Shown in pieces: positions 11,687-25,233 of a stretch of 37,374 nucleotides of DNA. The stretch comes from Acidobacteriota bacterium (GTDB lineage: Bacteria; Acidobacteriota; Vicinamibacteria; Vicinamibacterales; CAVVIG01). Below the pieces are notes generated by a model. It did not search any database and was not told the origin of the DNA. It saw only the letters and a list, made by a program, of their open reading frames with translations. The stretch spans positions 16,877 to 54,250 of the forward strand of contig JAHFUJ010000002.1 of NCBI GenBank assembly GCA_023265105.1, written 5' to 3'. Positions within the stretch are counted from its first letter, which is position 1; every line of letters begins with the position of its first letter. The translations under genes were made by a program, and so were the position numbers.

Positions 11687-11932
11687 GTGCCGAAGGTCCG
11701 CCGCCACGACATTCCGCCCGCGCTGTTCCAGCATCTGCTCGACCGCATCCAAAGCCGGAAGATCCCAGCAACTCAGCTGGAATTGCTGGCGAAGTGGCTC
11801 GATACCGAACCGGAAGTCCCCGAGGGTCAGTGGTTCAAACGATTCACGGGCATAACGGTTTGCGGCGAAGGAGAGTTGGTCAAGACTTTTCTCCTCCCTG
11901 GTCAGCCCGCCAAAGGCCAGAGGGTCTCATGA
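11687..11932 (+). CDS. Hypothetical small protein, partner of the upstream RHH-like gene
   Basis: The 81-aa product starts at GTG 11687. It reads VPKVRRHDIPPALFQHLLDRI, then RKIPATQLELLAKWLDTEPEVPEGQWFKRF and GITVCGEGELVKTFLLPGQ. Two predicted helices with a basic N-terminus precede a short beta-rich end. I recall similar short proteins in acidobacterial and proteobacterial genomes with no function assigned. The 3' end overlaps the convergent fusion gene by 31 bases. The product shows no nuclease, kinase or PIN signature, so calling it a toxin would be speculation. Confidence 0.6.
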   Translation: MPKVRRHDIPPALFQHLLDRIQSRKIPATQLELLAKWLDTEPEVPEGQWFKRFTGITVCGEGELVKTFLLPGQPAKGQRVS

Positions 11933-14562
11933 AGCGGGGATCGGTCGGGACGTTCCCGCAGATGGCCGCGAGCCGTGCGCATGTACTCGCGAGTTAGGCG
12001 GATGAGCGTGCGCCCGGACGTGGGCGTGATGCCCCGGCGGCGGTTCTCCGCCGCGATCTCGAACGCGATCCGCCACTGCGTCATCAGAACACGATACGCC
12101 CTCGTCAACGGTGTCCCGGGATGGTAGATGTGCGTGGCTTCCGAGGTCACGCCGTTCAACTCGATAATCTTGAACCCGCGCCCATTCCGAAATGCCTCGA
12201 TCCCTCCGTCCACTCGTACATCGAATCGTCCGAAATAGAAGCCATCGAAACCTCGCGCGATCGCGTCGAAGCGCTCTTCGAGCGCCGGTGTGAGCACCCA
12301 CGCGCCGTCGAGGAACATGGCGCCGCGGCAGTGGGTACCGAGCTCCGCGAGCGGGATCGCCTCGCCGACCGACGGCACATCCCCTAGCCTCTCGCGGTGT
12401 CGCTCACAGTAGAGCCGCGCCATGCATACCGCGCGTTCGTCCTGAAGAATCAATTCTTCCAACGTGCGTCGGCCATCGCCTACCACCGTGGGGAACCTCT
12501 TCTCGGTAATAGAAAAGACGTGACCACGTGACTCAGAGGGGTACCGGTAGTAAAAGACGCCGAACTCGGCCCCGGCGACGTACTCCTGGATGATCGTGTC
12601 GACCGACGAGTGTGCGAGACAGTCTTCAAGGGCGTTCGTTGAACGAACGACGATGACACCGGACCCACGTTGACCGTGGTTGGGTTTGAGGACGATCGGG
12701 AACGCCAGCGCTTCATCAGCCATGAAGCGTTGTGCCTCTCGAACTTTCTCGGTCTGGCTCAGACTCCCCGCAATCAGGCGCGAGCGCGCCATGTACTGGC
12801 GGGCACCGGCGAGTGCCTGAAGAATGGCGTATTTCGATTCGCCGACGAAGCCGCCTGCCTCAATCGCTGGATTGGCGGCTGTAAACAGGGTGACACTCCG
12901 ATGCTTCACCATGAGGTACACGATGTACCCGAGCAGCGGCGGATAGAACACCCAGGGCGGCCAGAATTCCCATCTCGTGCACCGTCGCCAAGACGAGACC
13001 AGCAGCCTGCGTCCCTTGGCGGTCGCCGCAAACTGGATGACCTTGAGAGCGAGCGCAACAAGCGCAATGGTGCTCACCGCACGCGCGTACGGAGACAGCA
13101 AAGCCATTGACGGGATGAACAGAACGGAACTGACGAACGCCGAAACGCCGACTGCCAAGGCTGCCCAGATGGCGTTGGCGAGCAGCAACAAAACCATGAA
13201 TCTCCACAGGCCCACGTTCAGCAAACCTGCTGCGACAGTCGCGGTACGCCGCCTGCCCAGTGCGAGCGAACTGAGGTGACGCGTCGCGACGCCGTGCTGT
13301 GAAAGGAACGCGAGGCTCCGTTCGACGGCCTCTGGCGGGAATAGCCATCGCGTCGGCGCCGCCTGGAAGACGCGCCGCCCATAACGGCGACTGCCAAGGA
13401 ATAGCAGCAGGTGGGCGATGCACATGCCAGTGAAGCAGGCGCGCACCGCCAGGGCGGGGCTCACACGTCCACGCGCAACGAGCGCGCCGGCAGCAGCACC
13501 GGTGACATTCTCGGAAACCAATGCGGCGGTCGTCAGAAGTCCACTGAACACCGCCGCGGCGATCCCCCGCACTTGCGGCAGCCGCAACGCGTCAAAGGCG
13601 GGGCTCGCTGCACGGACCCGCTCTGGATCTGCATCCGCGAGCGCCGGCGCCCGGCCCTGTTCCGCGCGATCGACGAACTCGGCAATGAGATTGCCGAGAT
13701 ACGGCGCCCTGGTGAACAGCAGGAAGTGATCTCCGTACGGTATGTGCAGCTCACTTTGAGGAATCAGGCGATGGTGCTCCTGTGCCGCCTCAATCGGCAC
13801 TTGATCGTCGTCGGTACCGTGAACAATCAGGGTCGGCACGGTCACCCGCCGAAGGATGTTGCGAAGAGGTCGTTGATCGGAATCGAAGAAGTTGCGCGCA
13901 TACGGAACATCCAACATGGCGTTGTCGAGACGGCCCATGTGCGGGGTCGCTTCGTGCAGGAGCCACAGCGCAATGAGCTGGACGCCGTGAACCGCGTGGT
14001 TGACGTAATAGTCGCCCGTCAGCTCCATCTCCTGGACGCCGATTGCCGAGAGCATCGTCAGGGACGCGACACGTTCGGGCGCCACGTCGGTCAGGTTCAG
14101 CGCAACGCCGCCTCCCATGCTGAACCCCAGCACGTGCGTCCGCCCGATGCCGAGCTGATCCAGGAGCTGCCGCACATAGACGGCGTGAGCGCGAAATGAA
14201 TAATCCGGCAGCGTGCGCGTGGAAGAACCGAAACCGGGCAGATCGGGCACGATCACCCGGGCGTGTTGCGCCAGGACAGGCGCGAGACGCCCGAAGTCGT
14301 CTTTGCGGCCCGGACTGCCGTGGAGGAGCACGATCGTTTCCTGATCCTGGCCAGAGGGCGGTGCGTACTCTCGATACGCAACGCGGATCGCCTCGGATGT
14401 GAGCCGTGTGCCGTCAACCGCCTGCGCAACGGCGACGCGATCGAATGGGCCGGCATCCGCGAGGGCCTGATGCGAGGATCGGGCGAAGAACGAGACCCCG
14501 AGCAGCAGTCCGTAGGCGCCGACGCCCAACAGTACTCGACCGCGCCGGGTTCGGGCGCTCAT
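11902..14562 (-). CDS. Alpha/beta-hydrolase / DedA-like membrane / ATP-grasp three-part fusion protein
   Basis: The product has 886 aa from ATG 14562; the frame runs further upstream but is antisense to the DM13 gene. A membrane anchor lies at residues 11-27. An alpha/beta-hydrolase at about 55-300 has HGSPG (81-85), nucleophile S148 in GFSMG, acid D251 or D252, and H279. A DedA-like membrane block (about 333-510) contains SENVTGAAAGALVARG, matching SEDLTCIAAGLLIQRG of the DedA gene at 27198-27782. An ATP-grasp domain at about 560-830 has K626, E660, and Mg-binding E801 and N803 in IIELNGV. The last domain belongs to the D-Ala-D-Ala-ligase-like carboxylate-amine ligases. Lipid- or cell-wall-linked amide chemistry is possible; the substrate is unknown. 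Confidence 0.85.
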   Translation of the reverse strand: MSARTRRGRVLLGVGAYGLLLGVSFFARSSHQALADAGPFDRVAVAQAVDGTRLTSEAIRVAYREYAPPSGQDQETIVLLHGSPGRKDDFGRLAPVLAQHARVIVPDLPGFGSSTRTLPDYSFRAHAVYVRQLLDQLGIGRTHVLGFSMGGGVALNLTDVAPERVASLTMLSAIGVQEMELTGDYYVNHAVHGVQLIALWLLHEATPHMGRLDNAMLDVPYARNFFDSDQRPLRNILRRVTVPTLIVHGTDDDQVPIEAAQEHHRLIPQSELHIPYGDHFLLFTRAPYLGNLIAEFVDRAEQGRAPALADADPERVRAASPAFDALRLPQVRGIAAAVFSGLLTTAALVSENVTGAAAGALVARGRVSPALAVRACFTGMCIAHLLLFLGSRRYGRRVFQAAPTRWLFPPEAVERSLAFLSQHGVATRHLSSLALGRRRTATVAAGLLNVGLWRFMVLLLLANAIWAALAVGVSAFVSSVLFIPSMALLSPYARAVSTIALVALALKVIQFAATAKGRRLLVSSWRRCTRWEFWPPWVFYPPLLGYIVYLMVKHRSVTLFTAANPAIEAGGFVGESKYAILQALAGARQYMARSRLIAGSLSQTEKVREAQRFMADEALAFPIVLKPNHGQRGSGVIVVRSTNALEDCLAHSSVDTIIQEYVAGAEFGVFYYRYPSESRGHVFSITEKRFPTVVGDGRRTLEELILQDERAVCMARLYCERHRERLGDVPSVGEAIPLAELGTHCRGAMFLDGAWVLTPALEERFDAIARGFDGFYFGRFDVRVDGGIEAFRNGRGFKIIELNGVTSEATHIYHPGTPLTRAYRVLMTQWRIAFEIAAENRRRGITPTSGRTLIRLTREYMRTARGHLRERPDRSPLHETLWPLAG

Positions 14563-14614
14563 AGAGGTGAACGTTCCTTGGATGCCGGGGCGCTCGCAAT
14601 CGTTACGGCATGAG

Positions 14615-15138
14615 CATTCCGAAACCTCCTCAGCGCCACGGAATCCTAGGTTGCGAGCGGTACCAAGACAAGACCGGAAACAACAACCGCAGTGATTCAG
14701 GAGGACAGAATGATTCGTCGCACCATCCGGGCATTTCGTACAGCACTCTTCAGCATCGCGGCGCTCACCATGACGGCGACGTTTGCGCTGGCACAGAGCC
14801 AAACCAGCAAGCCGTTCTCTGGAGCCAAAGTGAACGGCGGCACCATCACACACTCGACGAGGGACGGCCAGGACGTGCTCACGCTGTCGGACGACTTCAA
14901 GGTTCCCGACACACCAGATCCGCACTGGCAGGTGGTCGACTCAAAGGGCAACAACTACCTGCTGCAGCGTCTGGGCGTGAAGAACCTCGGCGGCCTCGCC
15001 AAGGACCGGATCAACATGTCGATCACACTGCCGGCCTACGTCAAGGACGTCGCCAAAGTGCAGATCTACTGCGCGTGGGCGGAAGCGGTCCTCGGCGAGG
15101 CGCCGTTCGGCGCCCCGTTGATGACGATGAACAAGTAG
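14615..15138 (+). repeat. Segmental duplication, copy 1 (DM13 gene plus about 95-bp leader)
   Basis: The leader GCATTCCGAAACCTCCTCAG and onward through AGGAGGACAGAATG aligns, with small gaps, to the sequence from about 24264. The homology continues to the stop codons of both DM13 genes and then ends. The other copy is at 24264-24784. Confidence 0.85.
14710..15138 (+). CDS. DM13-domain exported protein, copy 1
   Basis: The 142-aa product starts at ATG 14710, set by AGGAGG at 14699-14704; an upstream in-frame GTG at 14692 lies before that site. The signal peptide ends at FALAQS (about residue 30). The mature part reads KPFSGAKVNGGTITHSTRDG, VLTLSDDFKVPDTPDPHWQVV and LPAYVKDVAKVQIYCAWAEAVLGEA. 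These are the elements of a DM13 domain, including its conserved Cys near the end; DM13 is proposed to take part in electron transfer in the periplasm or cell surface. It is 121/142 identical by eye to the copy at 24356-24784. Confidence 0.85.
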   Translation: MIRRTIRAFRTALFSIAALTMTATFALAQSQTSKPFSGAKVNGGTITHSTRDGQDVLTLSDDFKVPDTPDPHWQVVDSKGNNYLLQRLGVKNLGGLAKDRINMSITLPAYVKDVAKVQIYCAWAEAVLGEAPFGAPLMTMNK

Positions 15139-15209: not shown

Positions 15210-15320
15210 TCAGTTTAGCGACAGCTCATACTGTCGTGGCTCGGCTCTGCCGCGGCGGCCGATGCTCACAAGGCATGTAACCCGCGGCAACCGGCCGACA
15301 TCAGAAAGGCAGAGGGAGTG

Positions 15321-15806
15321 ATGAAGCTTCTGACGAATTTCGTGGGCGTCGCGGTTTTCTCGGCGGCAGCGGCAGTCATGACAGCCCAGACCAACGAACC
15401 CTTGGCGCTCGACAAGAAGGTTCTGAGTCTGGCAGCGGCCAGAAAGATCGTCGCCGCCTCTGAAGCCGAGGCGAAGGCTCGCCGTCTGGGTGTCGTCATC
15501 GTCGTCGTAGACGACACCGGGAACATCATCCAGCTCACACGGATGGACGCAGCCCAGGTCGCCAGCGTCAATGTGGGTATCGGCAAGGCACGTACGGCCG
15601 CGATCTACCGGCGTCCGAGCAAAGACTTCGAAGAGCAGATCAAGAACGGTCGCGTGGCGGCACTGGCTCTTGCCGACGCGACCCCGCTCCAAGGCGGCGT
15701 GCCGGTCTGGATTGGCGGCAAGGTGGTCGGAGCGGTCGGCGTGAGTGGAGATTCGCCGCAGGCGGATGAAGAGATCGCCATCGCGGGAGCGAAGGCGATC
15801 CCCTGA
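15321..15806 (+). CDS. GlcG/HbpS-family (heme-binding-like) exported protein
   Basis: The 161-aa product starts at ATG 15321 (GTG 15318 directly before it is an alternative; the purine run at 15311-15318 serves either). A signal peptide (MKLLTNFVGVAVFSAAAAVMTAQ) precedes the compact GlcG/HbpS fold: LAAARKIVAASEAEAKARRLGVVIVVVDDTGNIIQLTRMDAA and the C-terminal GGKVVGAVGVSGDSP. HbpS of Streptomyces is an extracellular heme-binding sensor of oxidative stress; other members are glycolate- or cobalamin-linked. The conserved context of exported redox-type proteins here fits a heme or redox role, which is inference. Confidence 0.85.
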   Translation: MKLLTNFVGVAVFSAAAAVMTAQTNEPLALDKKVLSLAAARKIVAASEAEAKARRLGVVIVVVDDTGNIIQLTRMDAAQVASVNVGIGKARTAAIYRRPSKDFEEQIKNGRVAALALADATPLQGGVPVWIGGKVVGAVGVSGDSPQADEEIAIAGAKAIP

Positions 15807-15926: not shown

Positions 15927-17723
15927 ATGAGCCTCATTCCGGAAACGGCGCTCCCCGATTCGTTCCCTCCCTACGAGGCGTTCCGGCAGCACTTCGGCTT
16001 CGTGCCGGCAATCTTTCGCGCCCAGAGTCTGCTTCCCCGAGTCATCGAGGCTGAAGCGCAGATGGCCGGCGCGGTCCTGCTGGCGCCTGGCGCCCTGACG
16101 CGCGTTCAGAAGGAAACCATCCTTCTGACGCTGGCATCGCGTCATGCCAACGCGTACTGCGTGACCGCTCATCGCCACTTTCTTGGCGGGCTTGGTGTTC
16201 CGCCGCACCAGCTGGATGTACTGGCGCGCGACTACCACGACGCTGGCCTCTCTTCGGCGGACGTGGCGCTCCTGGATTTCGCGCTCAAGCTGGGAAGCGA
16301 GCCGAACTTCATACACGGAGGCGAGATCGAGGCGCTGCGCGCCAACGGGTTGACCGACGAGCAGATACTGGAAGCCGTCCTGATGACGGCCTTGACGAAT
16401 TTCCTGTGCACACTCTCGGCCGGCCTCGACGTGGCGCCAGATTTCGAGTTATCGCCGATTCGTTGCTCAATCCAAAGTCCGCCGGCGACGCTCGCGTCCC
16501 CTCCGACCGTGGCGACGAAAGGTCCGTACCTGCGTGCTGTAGTTCGAGACCAGAAAGAATTTCCACCGTTCGCATTCTTCCAGGAGAAATTCGGCTTCAT
16601 TCCCAACATCTTTCGAGCCCAAACCCTGCGACCCGACGTGGTCGAGGCCGAAGCGTTCACGGTTGGAACCGTGCTGCTGACCGACGACATCCTCTCCCGC
16701 GTGCGAAAGGAATTCATTCTGCTCGTCATCTCGGCCGCGAACCTCAACACCTACTGTGTCGCGGTGCATTGCGAGATGCTGCGCAACCTCGGCATACCGG
16801 CGGACGCCTCCGACCAGATCGCCGTCGATCACCGCAGCGCCGACCTGGGACAGGCCGACAAGGCGTTGCTCGATGTCGCGCTCAAGGTGGCTCGCCGATC
16901 GCCGACCTTCGGGCAGGCGGACCTGGACGGACTCCGCACCCATGGCTTTACCGACCCCCAAATCCTCGAAGCTGTGGTCATGGCCTCCCTGACCAATTTC
17001 CTTAATACGCTGCAGGTTGGCCTGGGCACCGTCACCGATTTCCACCCGCGGCGGGTCTTTGCGACCAGCGTGAATCTTTTGGAAGACCCGGCCCATCCAA
17101 TGGATCAGGGGACCGGTGGGGCCGAGCCGGCGGGCGACCCGGACACCGAGCTGGTCGCCAGAGCGAAGAGCGGTGACAGAGGCGCGTTCGAGGCACTGGT
17201 GCGAAACCATCATCGCCGGATCTACCGGACGTTGTTGGGCGTGACCGGGAACCCGCCAGATGCGGAGGACGCGACACAGACGGCGTTTCTCAAGGCATTC
17301 CAGCATCTCGGGGACTTCGAAGGACACGCGCGCTTCGGCACCTGGCTGACACGTATCGCCATCAACGAAGGTCTCGAATGCGTGCGTACGCGAAAGCCGA
17401 CGGAGAGTCTTTCGCCCGAGGACGAAGACGGAGGGCCGTTCCGCCCGCGGCTCGTGCTGGGATGGGCGGACGACCCCGAGCGGCTGTATCAGCGCGAGGA
17501 GCTCCGGGCCATGGTGGAACGCGCGGTGACCTCTCTACCCGTCCGTTATCGGATGGCCGTGCTTCTACGCGATCTGGAACAACTGTCGACCGCGGAGGCT
17601 GCGGCAGCGCTGGGATTGGGAATCCCAACCCTCAAAACTCATTTGCTTCGGGGCCGCCTGATGCTTCGCGAAGCGCTGGCTCCCCACTTCATTCCTCGAC
17701 AAGGAGCGGTGGCTCGTGTTTAG
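15927..17723 (+). CDS. Fusion: two AhpD/CMD peroxidase-like domains plus ECF sigma factor
   Basis: The product has 598 aa from ATG 15927 (TTG 15900 is also in frame). The first CMD/AhpD-like domain is about residues 10-175 and the second about 205-375; they are clearly homologous (FGFVPAIFRAQSLLPRVIEAEAQ versus FGFIPNIFRAQTLRPDVVEAEAF). AhpD enzymes use a CxxC pair, but here each site has Asn for the first Cys: N75-A-Y-C78 with H82, and N274-T-Y-C277 with H281. From about M392 an ECF sigma factor follows, with region 2 DAEDATQTAFLKAFQHLGDF and region 4 LPVRYRMAVLLRDLEQLSTAEAAAALG. One continuous frame links all three parts. The zinc anti-sigma gene overlaps its end by 8 bases. Sensing by single-Cys domains coupled to sigma activity is my inference. 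Confidence 0.88.
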   Translation: MSLIPETALPDSFPPYEAFRQHFGFVPAIFRAQSLLPRVIEAEAQMAGAVLLAPGALTRVQKETILLTLASRHANAYCVTAHRHFLGGLGVPPHQLDVLARDYHDAGLSSADVALLDFALKLGSEPNFIHGGEIEALRANGLTDEQILEAVLMTALTNFLCTLSAGLDVAPDFELSPIRCSIQSPPATLASPPTVATKGPYLRAVVRDQKEFPPFAFFQEKFGFIPNIFRAQTLRPDVVEAEAFTVGTVLLTDDILSRVRKEFILLVISAANLNTYCVAVHCEMLRNLGIPADASDQIAVDHRSADLGQADKALLDVALKVARRSPTFGQADLDGLRTHGFTDPQILEAVVMASLTNFLNTLQVGLGTVTDFHPRRVFATSVNLLEDPAHPMDQGTGGAEPAGDPDTELVARAKSGDRGAFEALVRNHHRRIYRTLLGVTGNPPDAEDATQTAFLKAFQHLGDFEGHARFGTWLTRIAINEGLECVRTRKPTESLSPEDEDGGPFRPRLVLGWADDPERLYQREELRAMVERAVTSLPVRYRMAVLLRDLEQLSTAEAAAALGLGIPTLKTHLLRGRLMLREALAPHFIPRQGAVARV

Positions 17724-17976
17724 CTGCGAAGATGTTCGGGCTGCGCTCAGCAACTATTTGGACGGCGACGTCTCGCCGGACCTTCGCCGCGAGCTGGAGC
17801 GTCACTTGAGCGAGTGCCGAACGTGCCAAGTGCTTTACGACACGACTCGGAAGACCCTGCATATCGTGACGAACGTGGGATCCTTCGACATCCCAGAAGC
17901 CGTGTCGGAACAGCTCGTCAAACGGATCATGAGCAGGCTCACCCTCCCACCGTCCGCCCCGCCGTCTCACTCCTAG
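17716..17976 (+). CDS. zf-HC2 zinc-binding anti-sigma factor
   Basis: The 86-aa product starts at GTG 17716 with AAGGAG at 17701-17706, overlapping the sigma-fusion stop by 8 bases. Its CEDVRAALSNYLDGDV, HLSECRTC pattern gives zinc ligands C4, H30, C34 and C37 (Hx3Cx2C), the ZAS anti-sigma fold. No membrane segment is present, so it is soluble. ZAS proteins hold ECF sigma factors inactive and can release them on oxidation of the zinc thiolates. Position and overlap point to the upstream fusion as its partner; the separate ECF gene at 18056 could be a second target. The tail motif EQLVKRI recurs in the anti-sigma protein at 33479. Confidence 0.88.
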   Translation: MFSCEDVRAALSNYLDGDVSPDLRRELERHLSECRTCQVLYDTTRKTLHIVTNVGSFDIPEAVSEQLVKRIMSRLTLPPSAPPSHS

Positions 17977-18055: not shown

Positions 18056-18688
18056 ATGCTTGAATCTAGCGGACACGACACGTTACAGACTGACCGGCCG
18101 GACGAAGCCGCGTGGGTCTGCCTGCTGCAGGCCAGGGATGATGACGCGTTCGAACGATTGGTCAGGACCTTCGGGGGTCGAATGCTGATGGTGGCGAAAC
18201 GCTACGTGAGCAACGAGGAAGATGCGAAAGATATCGTCCAGACGGCCTACCTCAGTGCGTTTCGGGCACTGGACCAATTTGAGGGTGCGGCCCAGCTCTC
18301 GACCTGGCTTCATCGGATCGTCGTCAATACGGCGCTGATGAAGCTCCGCTCAAGACGGCGAAAGCCTGAGGAGTCGATCGAAGACTTGCTACCGACATTC
18401 CAAGAGGATGGGCATCACGTCGAGCAGTTCTCGGAGTGGGGCGCGCCGGCCGATCAACTGATGGAGCGGAAGGAAACGTGCGCGACCGTCCGAGCGTGCA
18501 TCGAGCAGCTCCCGGAAAACTACCGCGCCGTGCTCATGCTGCGGGACATCGAGGAGCTCTCCACGCAAGAGGTGGCCGAGATGCTGACGATGACACCGAC
18601 GGCAGTGAAAGTTCGTCTACACCGCGCGCGCCAAGCGCTGTCCACATTGCTCCGGAAGCAGTACGCAAAGCCGAGCGTAACCTCTTAA
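18056..18688 (+). CDS. ECF-family RNA polymerase sigma factor
   Basis: The 210-aa product starts at ATG 18056. Region 2 (AFERLVRTFGGRMLMVAKRYV, then DAKDIVQTAYLSAFRALDQF and STWLHRIVVNTALMKLR) is separated by an acidic linker from region 4 (LPENYRAVLMLRDIEELSTQEVAEMLTMTPTAVKVRLHRARQAL). It directs core polymerase to a stress or envelope promoter set. It lies 79 bases after a zinc anti-sigma gene but has no dedicated one downstream. The last 13 codons lie inside the 84-bp dispersed repeat (18648-18731), so its C-terminus LRKQYAKPSVTS appears to come from that element. Confidence 0.92.
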   Translation: MLESSGHDTLQTDRPDEAAWVCLLQARDDDAFERLVRTFGGRMLMVAKRYVSNEEDAKDIVQTAYLSAFRALDQFEGAAQLSTWLHRIVVNTALMKLRSRRRKPEESIEDLLPTFQEDGHHVEQFSEWGAPADQLMERKETCATVRACIEQLPENYRAVLMLRDIEELSTQEVAEMLTMTPTAVKVRLHRARQALSTLLRKQYAKPSVTS

Positions 18689-19949: not shown

Positions 19950-20270
19950 CGTGAGCTCCTCTCTAGATCGTCGGAAGATCGTTTCTGGCCATTCGTCTGC
20001 GTGCTCTTTGATGCCGCGCATGACAAGCAGATGCATCTACTCGAGGGCGACTGCCACCCGAAACTACTCTGGCGCGCCGGAATCCAACGCACAAGCAGAC
20101 GCGAACCATGCGTCTGTGATGCCGCTGTGCGCCAGCGGCCCGAGCGAGGCGCCGGAGGGGAGCGCGGCGAAGCCGCGCCGCCGAGCGAGAGCCGTCAGCC
20201 GAAGCGCCGGGAGTGGGGCCCCGGCGCCGTGAAAGATGTGGGGCCCCGCAAGCATTGATGGAGGTGCACA
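19950..20270. promoter_or_regulatory. 321-base divergent intergenic region with GC-rich structured element
   Basis: No gene is seen here. The right half (20120-20250) is dense in hairpins: GCCGCTG/CAGCGGC at 20120-20138, GCGCGGC/GCCGCGC at 20162-20178, and a direct repeat CGAGCGAG at about 20140 and 20181. GTGGGGCCCCG appears twice, at about 20213 and 20238. It could be a regulatory RNA leader, a dispersed intergenic repeat, or both. Promoters for the two divergent genes should also lie in this region. Confidence 0.5.
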
Positions 20271-21917
20271 GTGAGATCGCGGATTCCAGCTCGTCGTTCA
20301 ATCGGCGCCGTCGCCGCCGCCGTCCTGGCTCTTGCCATTGCCGAGCTCCATGCGCAGCATGCGGTCCGGAGACCGATCGATGGCAGACCGAGCGCGGTCA
20401 TCGATTTGCGCACAACTGATGGTGTGCGGCTCGTCAAAGGACAGTGGCGATACAGCGACACCACCATCATCGAGGCCGATTTCAACGCTCCAGGCTCCGA
20501 TCTCAGGCCGTCTGGAAAGCCGATCAAGACGTACGACTACACGCCGAAGGCCGGTGCCGCCGACTTCGACGATTCCCGATGGCAGGCCATCGAACCCGCG
20601 GCGCTCGAAGCTCGAAGGTCCACCGGGAAACTCTGCTTCAACTGGTATCGAACTGCCGTGACGATCCCGGAGCGGGTCGGCACGTTTTCGACGGCCGGTT
20701 CCACCGTGGTGTTCGAAATCGTCGTGGACGACTATGCCGAAGTGTGGGTTGACGGCAAACTGCCGAAAACACTCGGCCAGACAGGCGGCGCGCTGATCAA
20801 GGGGTTCAACGCGCCCAATCGCGTGGTGATCACGAACAACGCGCAGCCAGGTCAGACCATTCAGCTGGCGATCTTCGGCGTCAACGGTCCACTGGCCGAT
20901 CCACCGTCGAACTTCATTTGGGTCCGCTCGGCGACGCTGGATTTCTTCAAACCCGGCGCGACCACTGGACCGACAACACCCGCGCAAGTCACGCGGCTTG
21001 ATCCCGCGCTCGACGCGATCGTTCCGCCTGACGCGAAAATCGAGAAGCTCGCCGAAGGATTCCTTTTCACCGAGGGCCCGATCTGGATGCCCGACGGCTA
21101 CCTGCTGTTCAGCGATCCAAACAGCAACACCATCTATCGCTGGTCAGACAATGACGGCTTGTCGGTCTTCCGAACCAAGAGTGGATACACAGGGGTCGAT
21201 GTCGGCGAGTACGGCCAGCCCGGCTCGAACGGGCTGACGCTGGACCGGGACGGCCGGCTGACAATCGACGAGCACGGTAACCGACGGGTCACGCGGCTCG
21301 AAAAAAATGGCTCGCTGACCGTCTTGGCTGACCGCTACGACGGCAAGCGGCTGAACAGCCCGAACGACCTCGTGTACAAGTCGGACGGATCGCTGTACTT
21401 CACGGACCCGCCGTTTGGTCTGCCGAAATTCTTCGACGATCCACGGAAGGAAACGCCGTACAGCGGCGTGTATCGGTGGTTCGATGGGAAGGTGCAACTG
21501 CTCACCACGGATGTCACCGGACCGAACGGCCTGGCCTTCTCACCCGACGAGAGGTATTTCTACCTCGGGAACTGGGATGAGAAGAAGAAGATCGTGATGC
21601 GGTACGAGGTGAAACCGGACGGCACGCTGGCAAACGGCCGGGTGTTCTTCGATATGACGAGCGCACCAGGAGAAGACGCCCTCGACGGGTTGAAAGTCGA
21701 TCGGCAGGGGAACGTCTACGTGTCCGGACCCGGCGGCCTCTGGATTCTGTCGCCGACTGGAAAGCACCTCGGAACGATCGTCGGCCCCGAACACCCGCAC
21801 AATTTTGCGTGGGGCGACGCCGATGGCCGGACGCTCTATCTGACTGCGCAAACCGGACTGTATAGGATTCGACTGGGCATCCCGGGCACCCGTCCGTTGA
21901 CGGTTGCGACGCACTAA
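20271..21917 (+). CDS. SMP-30/gluconolactonase-like protein with N-terminal jelly-roll-like domain
   Basis: The 548-aa product starts at GTG 20271 with GGAGG at 20260-20264. A signal peptide ends near LHAQH (about residue 29). Residues about 40-235 resemble the galactose-binding jelly roll of glycosidases (WYRTAVTIPERVG, VFEIVVDDYAEVWVDGK). The SMP-30 beta-propeller follows, with metal ligand candidate E268 in TEGPIWMPDGYLLF, then LNSPNDLVYKSDGSLYFTDP, GPNGLAFSPDERYFY and DGLKVDRQGNVYVSG. SMP-30 enzymes hydrolyse sugar lactones; the fused binding domain suggests an exported enzyme on polysaccharide- or glycoside-linked substrates. A remnant of a second copy's tail is at 24183-24227. Confidence 0.85.
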   Translation: MRSRIPARRSIGAVAAAVLALAIAELHAQHAVRRPIDGRPSAVIDLRTTDGVRLVKGQWRYSDTTIIEADFNAPGSDLRPSGKPIKTYDYTPKAGAADFDDSRWQAIEPAALEARRSTGKLCFNWYRTAVTIPERVGTFSTAGSTVVFEIVVDDYAEVWVDGKLPKTLGQTGGALIKGFNAPNRVVITNNAQPGQTIQLAIFGVNGPLADPPSNFIWVRSATLDFFKPGATTGPTTPAQVTRLDPALDAIVPPDAKIEKLAEGFLFTEGPIWMPDGYLLFSDPNSNTIYRWSDNDGLSVFRTKSGYTGVDVGEYGQPGSNGLTLDRDGRLTIDEHGNRRVTRLEKNGSLTVLADRYDGKRLNSPNDLVYKSDGSLYFTDPPFGLPKFFDDPRKETPYSGVYRWFDGKVQLLTTDVTGPNGLAFSPDERYFYLGNWDEKKKIVMRYEVKPDGTLANGRVFFDMTSAPGEDALDGLKVDRQGNVYVSGPGGLWILSPTGKHLGTIVGPEHPHNFAWGDADGRTLYLTAQTGLYRIRLGIPGTRPLTVATH

Positions 21918-24263: not shown

Positions 24264-24784
24264 CATCGAAACCTTCTCAACAGGACGGAATCCAAGTGGT
24301 GAGCGGTAGAACGCAGAAAAGATCGGAAACAACCGCAGTGATTTAGGAGGACAGAATGAGTGGTCGCACCATCCAGACAGTTCGTACGGGGCTCTTCAGC
24401 ATCGCGGCGCTCGCCATGACGGCGACATTCGCACTCGCACAGAGCCACACCAGCAAGCCGTTCTCCGGCGCGAAAGTGAACGCCGGCACGGTCACACACT
24501 CGACCAAAGACGGCAGGGACGTGCTCACGCTGTCGGACGACTTCAAGGTGCCCGACACACCCGATCCGCACTGGCAGGTTGTGGACTCAAAGGGCAGCAC
24601 GTACCTCTTGCAGCGTCTCGGCGCGAAGAACCTCGCTGGCCTCGCCAACGACCGGATCAACATGTCGATCACGCTGCCCGCGTACATCAGGGATGTCGCC
24701 AAAGTGCAGATCTACTGCGCGTGGGCGGAAGCGATCCTCGGCGAGGCGCCCTTCAGCGCCCCGTTGATGACGATGAACAAGTAA
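24264..24784 (+). repeat. Segmental duplication, copy 2 (DM13 gene plus leader)
   Basis: Homologous to 14615-15138, including the leader with GAGCGGTA and GGAAACAACCGCAGTGATT and the AGGAGGACAGAATG start region. Small gaps occur only in the leader; the coding parts have equal length. Confidence 0.85.
24356..24784 (+). CDS. DM13-domain exported protein, copy 2
   Basis: The 142-aa product starts at ATG 24356 after AGGAGG. It differs from the copy at 14710 at 21 residues by eye, mostly conservative (K/R, I/V, G/A). The signal peptide and the DM13 core (KPFSGAKVNAGTVTHSTKDG, LPAYIRDVAKVQIYCAWAEAILGEA) are intact. It is followed after 11 bases by a cupin gene, so the second copy has a new operon partner. 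Both copies look functional; reduced divergence suggests a fairly recent duplication or gene conversion. Confidence 0.85.
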   Translation: MSGRTIQTVRTGLFSIAALAMTATFALAQSHTSKPFSGAKVNAGTVTHSTKDGRDVLTLSDDFKVPDTPDPHWQVVDSKGSTYLLQRLGAKNLAGLANDRINMSITLPAYIRDVAKVQIYCAWAEAILGEAPFSAPLMTMNK

Positions 24785-24795
24785 CGGGGAACATC

Positions 24796-25233
24796 ATGCG
24801 TTCATTCATTGCCATCACGATCGCCGTCGTCGCAGCGTATGGTGTCGGGCTCGCGCTGCCGGACGCCAGCTCGAAGGTCACCTACATTCCGGCCGACCAG
24901 GTGAAGGCCGCCTTTGCCAAGGGCGCGGTTCTCATCAACAACGGCAGCTATCAGGTTCACGCAAGCCGCCGCGAAGAGCCCGGGCAGGTCGAAGTCCACG
25001 TGAAGGACACAGACGTCGTCTACATGCTCGAAGGCACCACCACGTTCGTCACCGGCGGCACGATGGTCGGAGGCAAAACGACGGCTCCTGACGAAATCCG
25101 AGGCTCGAACGTGCAAGGCGGCGAGACGCGCACGCTCACAAAGGGCGATGTCATCATCGTCCCCAAAGGCACACCGCACTGGTTCAAAGAGATCTCCGGG
25201 CCGGTCCTCTATTACGTGGTGAAGGTCCAGTAA
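24796..25233 (+). CDS. Cupin-domain exported protein
   Basis: The 145-aa product starts at ATG 24796 with GGGGA just upstream. A short hydrophobic N-terminus (RSFIAITIAVVAAYGVGLAL) suggests export or anchoring. The cupin barrel shows GQVEVHVKDTDVVYMLEGTTTFVTGG and a second strand set, LTKGDVIIVPKGTPHWFKEISG. Candidate metal ligands include H in EVHVKDTD and H in PKGTPHW. Function is unknown; small cupins act as dioxygenases, isomerases or sensors. It follows DM13 copy 2 by 11 bases and is ended by a hairpin at 25274. Confidence 0.85.
   Translation: MRSFIAITIAVVAAYGVGLALPDASSKVTYIPADQVKAAFAKGAVLINNGSYQVHASRREEPGQVEVHVKDTDVVYMLEGTTTFVTGGTMVGGKTTAPDEIRGSNVQGGETRTLTKGDVIIVPKGTPHWFKEISGPVLYYVVKVQ

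Follow-up and report, generated by a model that had tools for sequence, protein, structure and literature searches.

An ECF sigma factor preceded, within one and the same protein, by two domains of the AhpD/CMD family is encoded at positions 15927-17723 of the forward strand of the window, a 37,374-nucleotide stretch of an Acidobacteriota genome. As an earlier note on this DNA had described, the open frame (598 amino acids) runs without a stop through both CMD domains, which are homologous, and through a full sigma part; all of these domains score above their cut-offs, and the fusion of the CMD pair to the sigma factor is real. In the reading that we prefer, to which we grant a little less than an even chance, the protein would be a single-protein regulator, where the tandem CMD pair placed at the N-terminus acts as a sensor for a sigma factor kept in check by a zinc anti-sigma factor of the soluble type. 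Such a gene switch, sensing redox state or a metabolite, would by its looks be of a rare design.

The first domain, CMD1 (residues 1-180; 15927..16466, +), and the second, CMD2 (residues ~199-380; 16521..17066, +), are 48% identical to each other, and both pass the NCBIfam cut-off of TIGR01926, the peroxidase-related model (81.8 bits), with 82.1 and 105.5 bits respectively; CMD2 also matches the solved structure 2prr with E=1.1e-22. After a linker (17067..17121, +) whose length differs among fusions, the ECF part (residues ~399-598; 17121..17723, +) displays sigma region 2 (Sigma70_r2, residues 424-489; PF04542 E=3.2e-14) and sigma region 4 (Sigma70_r4_2, residues 529-580; PF08281 E=4.1e-12), both above the Pfam gathering score, and no further domain, as befits an ECF factor, where sigma1 and sigma3 are absent. 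TIGR02937 recognizes this part with 77.8 bits (cut-off 42.9), and the best general model, NF008888, reaches 166.5 bits, below its cut-off of 204. Because the N-termini of homologous fusions align (MSLIP.., VSFFP.., VGFFR..), the ATG at 15927 is supported as the start of the protein. An AlphaFold model based on a two-sequence alignment of the fusion yielded a pLDDT of 44.8 and a pTM of 0.31, and this has to be counted against our preferred reading.

It might be argued that a frame error or a chimeric assembly fused two separate genes, as the contig comes from a MAG and relatives possess operons where the genes are separate. This is hardly credible. The same order is found in three other assemblies, at about 49-72% identity per domain, independent homologous fusions that rule out the artefact, and the separate-gene operons run the opposite way, with the ECF gene first and the CMD gene last. 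A frame error near position 17100, named beforehand as a way to undo the fusion, is excluded by the same homologues, and the junction of the fusion in the window contains neither stop nor frame change. In the same phylum as the window, the full fusion is present in two genomes of one other family, G178 (L042, a 631-aa frame, 59% identical across residues 2-597) and G200 (L043, a 671-aa frame), with a CMD2 that is 68-71% identical. In another phylum, a Methylomirabilota MAG (L011) carries it from CMD2 onward, where a contig end cuts it; since that contig begins before CMD2, CMD1 cannot be judged there. The homologues with the same domain order that one had to look for are thus at hand, twice in full and once in part.

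Identity between the fusions is 54-59% for CMD1, 67-72% for CMD2, 49-70% for sigma2, 63-72% for sigma4 and 8-24% for the linker, so that CMD1 is more diverged than CMD2. CMD2 equals or exceeds sigma2 in conservation, in contrast to the linkers, so it has been retained for a function; judging from these alignments, every domain of the fusion is under constraint. In the tree, the CMD1 copies (support 99/97) and the CMD2 copies (100/98) form sister groups, which indicates a single CMD duplication predating the divergence of the fusions, and a single origin for the fusion itself. It is a rare protein, found in 3 of the 396 genomes of the phylum. Across the 193 genomes searched in the class to which the window belongs, no fusion was found at E<=1e-50 beyond the window's own (1/193), and no second copy turned up at E<=1e-40 among the 95 genomes searched as the phylum group of the Methylomirabilota MAG (1/95). 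The viral contigs searched held no relative; in the plasmids searched, CMD and ECF matches occurred only apart from each other and never covered 80% of the query. This patchy occurrence suggests horizontal transfer.

The active site of the CMD pair departs from that of its family in a well-defined way. The residues E63/N75/Y77/C78/H82 and E262/N274/Y276/C277/H281 were confirmed letter by letter, which bears out that Asn stands for the first Cys in both sites, with the second Cys and the His kept. The motifs of the fusion, HANAYC in CMD1 and NLNTYC in CMD2, correspond to NxCxYC in solved TIGR01926 relatives, N274 aligning exactly to the first Cys of that motif in 2prr, 2pfx, 6k40, 2oyo and 3c1l. 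The pair resembles the TIGR01926/AhpD-like enzymes (2prr, 2oyo, 6k40; CxxU forms) in its fold family and its Glu/Tyr/Cys/His relay, but differs from them in having Asn at the first Cys in both domains, in being duplicated and in being fused to a sigma factor. The relay of AhpD and PA0269 is made of Glu, Cys, Tyr/His, Cys and His (PMC3141380): four of these five residues are present in both domains, E63/Y77/C78/H82 and E262/Y276/C277/H281, and the CxxC of a two-Cys AhpD-type peroxidase is absent from both.

This substitution extends to all 7 fused CMD domains, Asn being conserved throughout. In the 4 solo CMDs that belong to the same clade, this position holds Ser (3) or Asn (1), so that the group of 11 domains has N in 8 cases, S in 3 and never Cys; the other relatives from the phylum keep the first Cys in 26 cases out of 27, with Thr in the last. 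Fisher's test for loss of the first Cys in the 11-domain group against these relatives gives 1e-8, a value that ignores kinship and overstates the evidence, since all 11 group together in the tree as a single clade (support 93/99) and may reflect one event. The N/S change may then be a single event devoid of regulatory meaning, a point that counts against the sensor reading. In 13 of the 27 other relatives, an in-frame TGA occupies the place of the second Cys (e.g. NQCHYU, NRCQYU). Selenocysteine normally takes the place of the catalytic nucleophile, so that, by analogy, the Cys kept by the fusion would be the nucleophile and the missing first Cys the resolving one. Free-standing TIGR01926-like CMD genes with NxCxYU were seen, for example, at eight loci; the CxxU form has been described for AhpD-like selenoproteins (PMC2398784), and the TGA-bearing CMD genes of these same-phylum genomes are likely to code for selenoproteins.

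The CMD pair of the fusion is probably non-peroxidatic. The Thermus protein TTHA0727, a member of the CMD family which has likewise lost the first Cys (Ser there), is taken to be without peroxidase activity (cited in PMC3141380); unlike the sigma-fused pair, it is free-standing. The description of the domains as single-Cys did not survive inspection: CMD2 has both C277 and C282, and CMD1 further cysteines, C161 and C180. C282, directly after the relay His, is invariant in the 4 CMD2 copies and absent from CMD1, and it may be an alternative redox partner. One could also imagine that the CMD pair forms a stable all-helical pseudo-dimer which simply positions or protects the sigma part or recruits a partner (a solo CMD, or the second sigma factor ECF2 described below), with neither sensing nor catalysis. 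CMD-fold proteins are oligomeric in crystals (PMC3141380), the fusion has two CMD domains, and the cluster of G178 adds a solo one. We hold such a docking role to be improbable, as the active-site block of CMD2, ISAxNLNTYCVAVHCEML, is nearly invariant across phyla, beyond the needs of a pure scaffold.

In the preferred sensor reading, a partner holds the sigma factor, and the locus provides a candidate. A zf-HC2 (ZAS) anti-sigma gene of the soluble type (17716..17976, +; 86 aa; PF13490 E=2.6e-11) shares 8 bp with the 3' end of the fusion gene, an overlap already noticed, and such a gene follows the fusion in all three homologous loci (3/3), the overlap being equally long in L011 (1309 vs 1316). 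Its ligands, C4-x25-H30-x3-C34-x2-C37, are invariant in 12 aligned zf-HC2 relatives, as in a ZAS protein; their spacing is that of C11/H37/C41/C44 in RsrA (PMC3961337), and the protein has no evident membrane segment. An anti-sigma factor with RsrA-like ligand spacing, translationally coupled to the fusion, is thus supported by the arrangement of the genes. The locus resembles SigR/RsrA in having, beside a sigma gene, a zf-HC2 protein of soluble size with the C-x25-H-x3-C-x2-C pattern. It differs in that SigR is without CMD domains, where the fusion sigma has two, and in that the zf-HC2 protein scores 41.6 bits with the RsrA equivalog TIGR03988, below the cut-off of 62.5; a redox response would be assumed here by analogy. 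Soluble anti-sigma factors of this kind have been linked to cytosolic, often oxidative, signals (review, PMC8999054).

Upstream of the fusion are found a DM13-like exported protein (14692..15138, +), in a conserved gene order, and an HbpS/GlcG-like protein (15318..15806, +; PF03928 E=2.4e-30); downstream, an SMP-30/gluconolactonase-like exported protein, SGL (20271..21917, +; PF08450 E=3.6e-40), and a cupin (24721..25233, +; PF07883, start codon uncertain), a displaced member of the HbpS/cupin/SGL set, whose ortholog sits between HbpS and SGL in other genomes. Of the two neighbours singled out in the earlier note, HbpS is solid, while a firm DM13 annotation had to be rejected: with 14.5 bits for PF10517, below the Pfam cut-off of 25, DM13-like is the safer label. 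A (DM13-like) - HbpS - cupin - SGL operon exists in many genomes and families of the phylum (including L125-L140), often near ECF genes. In the window, this set is split, with DM13-like at 14692, HbpS at 15318, the fusion cluster, SGL at 20271, a second DM13-like gene at 24356 and the cupin at 24721. The two DM13-like copies (14618-15138 and 24267-24783), with 87% DNA identity, flank the fusion cluster, and this repeat pair suggests a partial duplication or a rearrangement of the locus.

In G178, HbpS, cupin and SGL face the fusion cluster tail to tail, as does the SGL gene in G200. SGL is present at E<=1e-100 in 25 of the 396 genomes, including all 3 fusion genomes of the phylum, a co-occurrence with a hypergeometric value of 2e-4, where G178 and G200, being related, are not independent. 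The window also encodes a second, unfused ECF sigma factor, ECF2 (18056..18688, +; PF08281/PF04542), that had been overlooked. In other genomes, its close relatives lie near a DM13-like gene or near the DM13-like/HbpS/cupin/SGL set, an ECF2-type sigma gene being close to the operon in G251 and G193, and the ECF tree places it nearest to ECF2 genes of its own family located near DM13-like genes. A heme or redox theme, as proposed in the earlier note, agrees with the presence of HbpS; as this gene is part of the conserved operon, however, sugar/lactone oxidation is equally backed, and the neighbourhood points to exported or sugar/lactone oxidation as much as to heme. Glucose dehydrogenase and aquaporin genes adjoin the fusion in L011, and the neighbourhood of L090 contains glucokinase and NDH-2-like genes. 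The search for a promoter motif common to the fusions and the operons gave nothing convincing and no sign of autoregulation, which counts against our preferred reading; a TTGAC..TAGCCT-like pair, judged by eye, is common to the upstream regions of L042 and L043. A promoter/terminator scan showed no sigma-70-type site and no terminator excess.

Relatives of the three modules also exist as separate genes, in the order ECF - zf-HC2 - CMD, in G214 (L044) and again in G178, at another locus (L070). The CMDs of these operons are basal in the 11-domain group, and their ECF parts share a clade with those of the fusions (support 100/97). As these operons use the same CMD clade, a CMD of this type goes with this sigma/anti-sigma pair in fused and in separate form alike. 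Separate-gene homologues had been announced as a refutation of the fusion; they do exist, but they occur beside fusions, and strengthen the functional link rather than refute it. In G178, the fusion and its zf-HC2 gene are followed by a second ECF gene, a second zf-HC2 gene and a solo CMD. The solo CMD of G200 (L071) is not adjacent to a sigma gene, another point against our preferred reading.

These operons lend weight to the main rival explanation, in which an enzyme has been joined to the regulator that governs it. The CMD gene, once the target or partner in an ECF/zf-HC2/CMD operon, would have been fused to the sigma gene, merely coupling production of enzyme and regulator; the CMD pair would still work as an enzyme, other than a classical two-Cys peroxidase, and the anti-sigma factor alone would sense. 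In ECF41, an ECF sigma factor which is likewise linked to a CMD-family protein and bears a fused extra domain, the only target known is the adjacent CMD gene, which shows no signalling role and is no sensor (PMC3426412), and we counted this against the sensor reading. The retained nucleophile and relay His/Glu/Tyr, together with the sugar/lactone-type neighbours (SGL, cupin, glucose dehydrogenase, glucokinase), also suit an enzyme. We nevertheless deem this explanation less likely than the sensor reading. A fusion ties the amount and the place of the enzyme to those of the regulator, which would be strange for a catalyst; all 11 members have lost the first Cys, which ECF41-linked CMDs keep within CxxC; and the Ser of TTHA0727 was read as a sign that peroxidase activity is absent. 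The comparison with ECF41 has further limits. There, the extension is C-terminal and SnoaL-like, there is no anti-sigma gene, and the CMD (COE) is a separate protein with CxxC; the fusion has its CMD pair at the N-terminus, a zinc anti-sigma gene, and has lost the first Cys. Membership of ECF41 was rejected, sigma4 ending at about residue 585 of 598 with no SnoaL match, a zf-HC2 gene overlapping, and N75/N274 being in place.

From the architecture, conservation, residue pattern and neighbourhood just described, we infer how the single-protein regulator might sense and respond. The zf-HC2 protein would hold the sigma part in the cytosol in an inactive state, and release it once its Cys/His zinc site is oxidized or otherwise opened. 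The CMD tandem, TIGR01926-type domains modified from peroxidase-like enzymes, would, with a nucleophilic Cys and a Glu/Tyr/His relay but no resolving Cys, act as a one-Cys or binding module, sensing a cytosolic oxidant or small ligand via C277, perhaps also C282. Its oligomeric state, or its contact with sigma or anti-sigma, would set how easily the sigma factor is released or used, and the free sigma would then drive its own cluster, probably also the neighbouring HbpS/cupin/gluconolactonase-like genes. The long, variable linker does not favour tight allostery, and this too weighs against the scheme.

Each element has its precedents: ECF factors extended at the N-terminus, ECF genes with a CMD gene for a neighbour, and zinc anti-sigma factors of the soluble kind. 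In the Planctomycetes, former ECF87-89 have, like the fusion, a candidate regulatory domain before sigma2 (PMC8103513), and a review of 2021 reported no mechanistic information on ECF regulation by N-terminal extensions (PMC8103513). Our literature search, the scope of which was that of papers available without subscription, found no CMD-ECF fusion combining a changed CMD site with a zinc anti-sigma factor; the fusion may be listed in the official ECF classification (2021). We advance only tentatively that it founds a class of its own, in which a single protein senses a redox or metabolite signal and a tandem CMD devoid of two-Cys chemistry gates the attached sigma factor together with a soluble zinc anti-sigma factor; it would then be the first N-terminal extension of a sigma factor whose sensing chemistry can be read. 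The family is a testable case: the chemistry of its fold is known, its first Cys is changed to Asn while the nucleophile stays, its anti-sigma partner is encoded next to it, and nature offers circuits of separate genes to compare it with. An antioxidant enzyme would here be seen to have turned into a regulator, and the family bears on the frequent adjacency of CMD and ECF genes.

Some features of the window and of its relatives may be added. On the reverse strand, a long frame (11902-14925, -) contains alpha/beta hydrolase, VTT-like and RimK-like ATP-grasp stretches; as its upstream part overlaps the DM13-like gene, its true start must lie later. An Rfam search of the window returned no match, and this includes a dispersed GC-rich repeat at 20124-20260, many copies of which, 75-94% identical over 40-130 bases, are present in its own genome and in the other genomes of the family. 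Finally, at L074 (822-2368), an unfused relative of the sigma part and its zf-HC2 gene come right behind a different ECF gene, which is accompanied by a ChrR-type cupin protein, so that two distinct zinc/cupin sigma systems stand next to each other.
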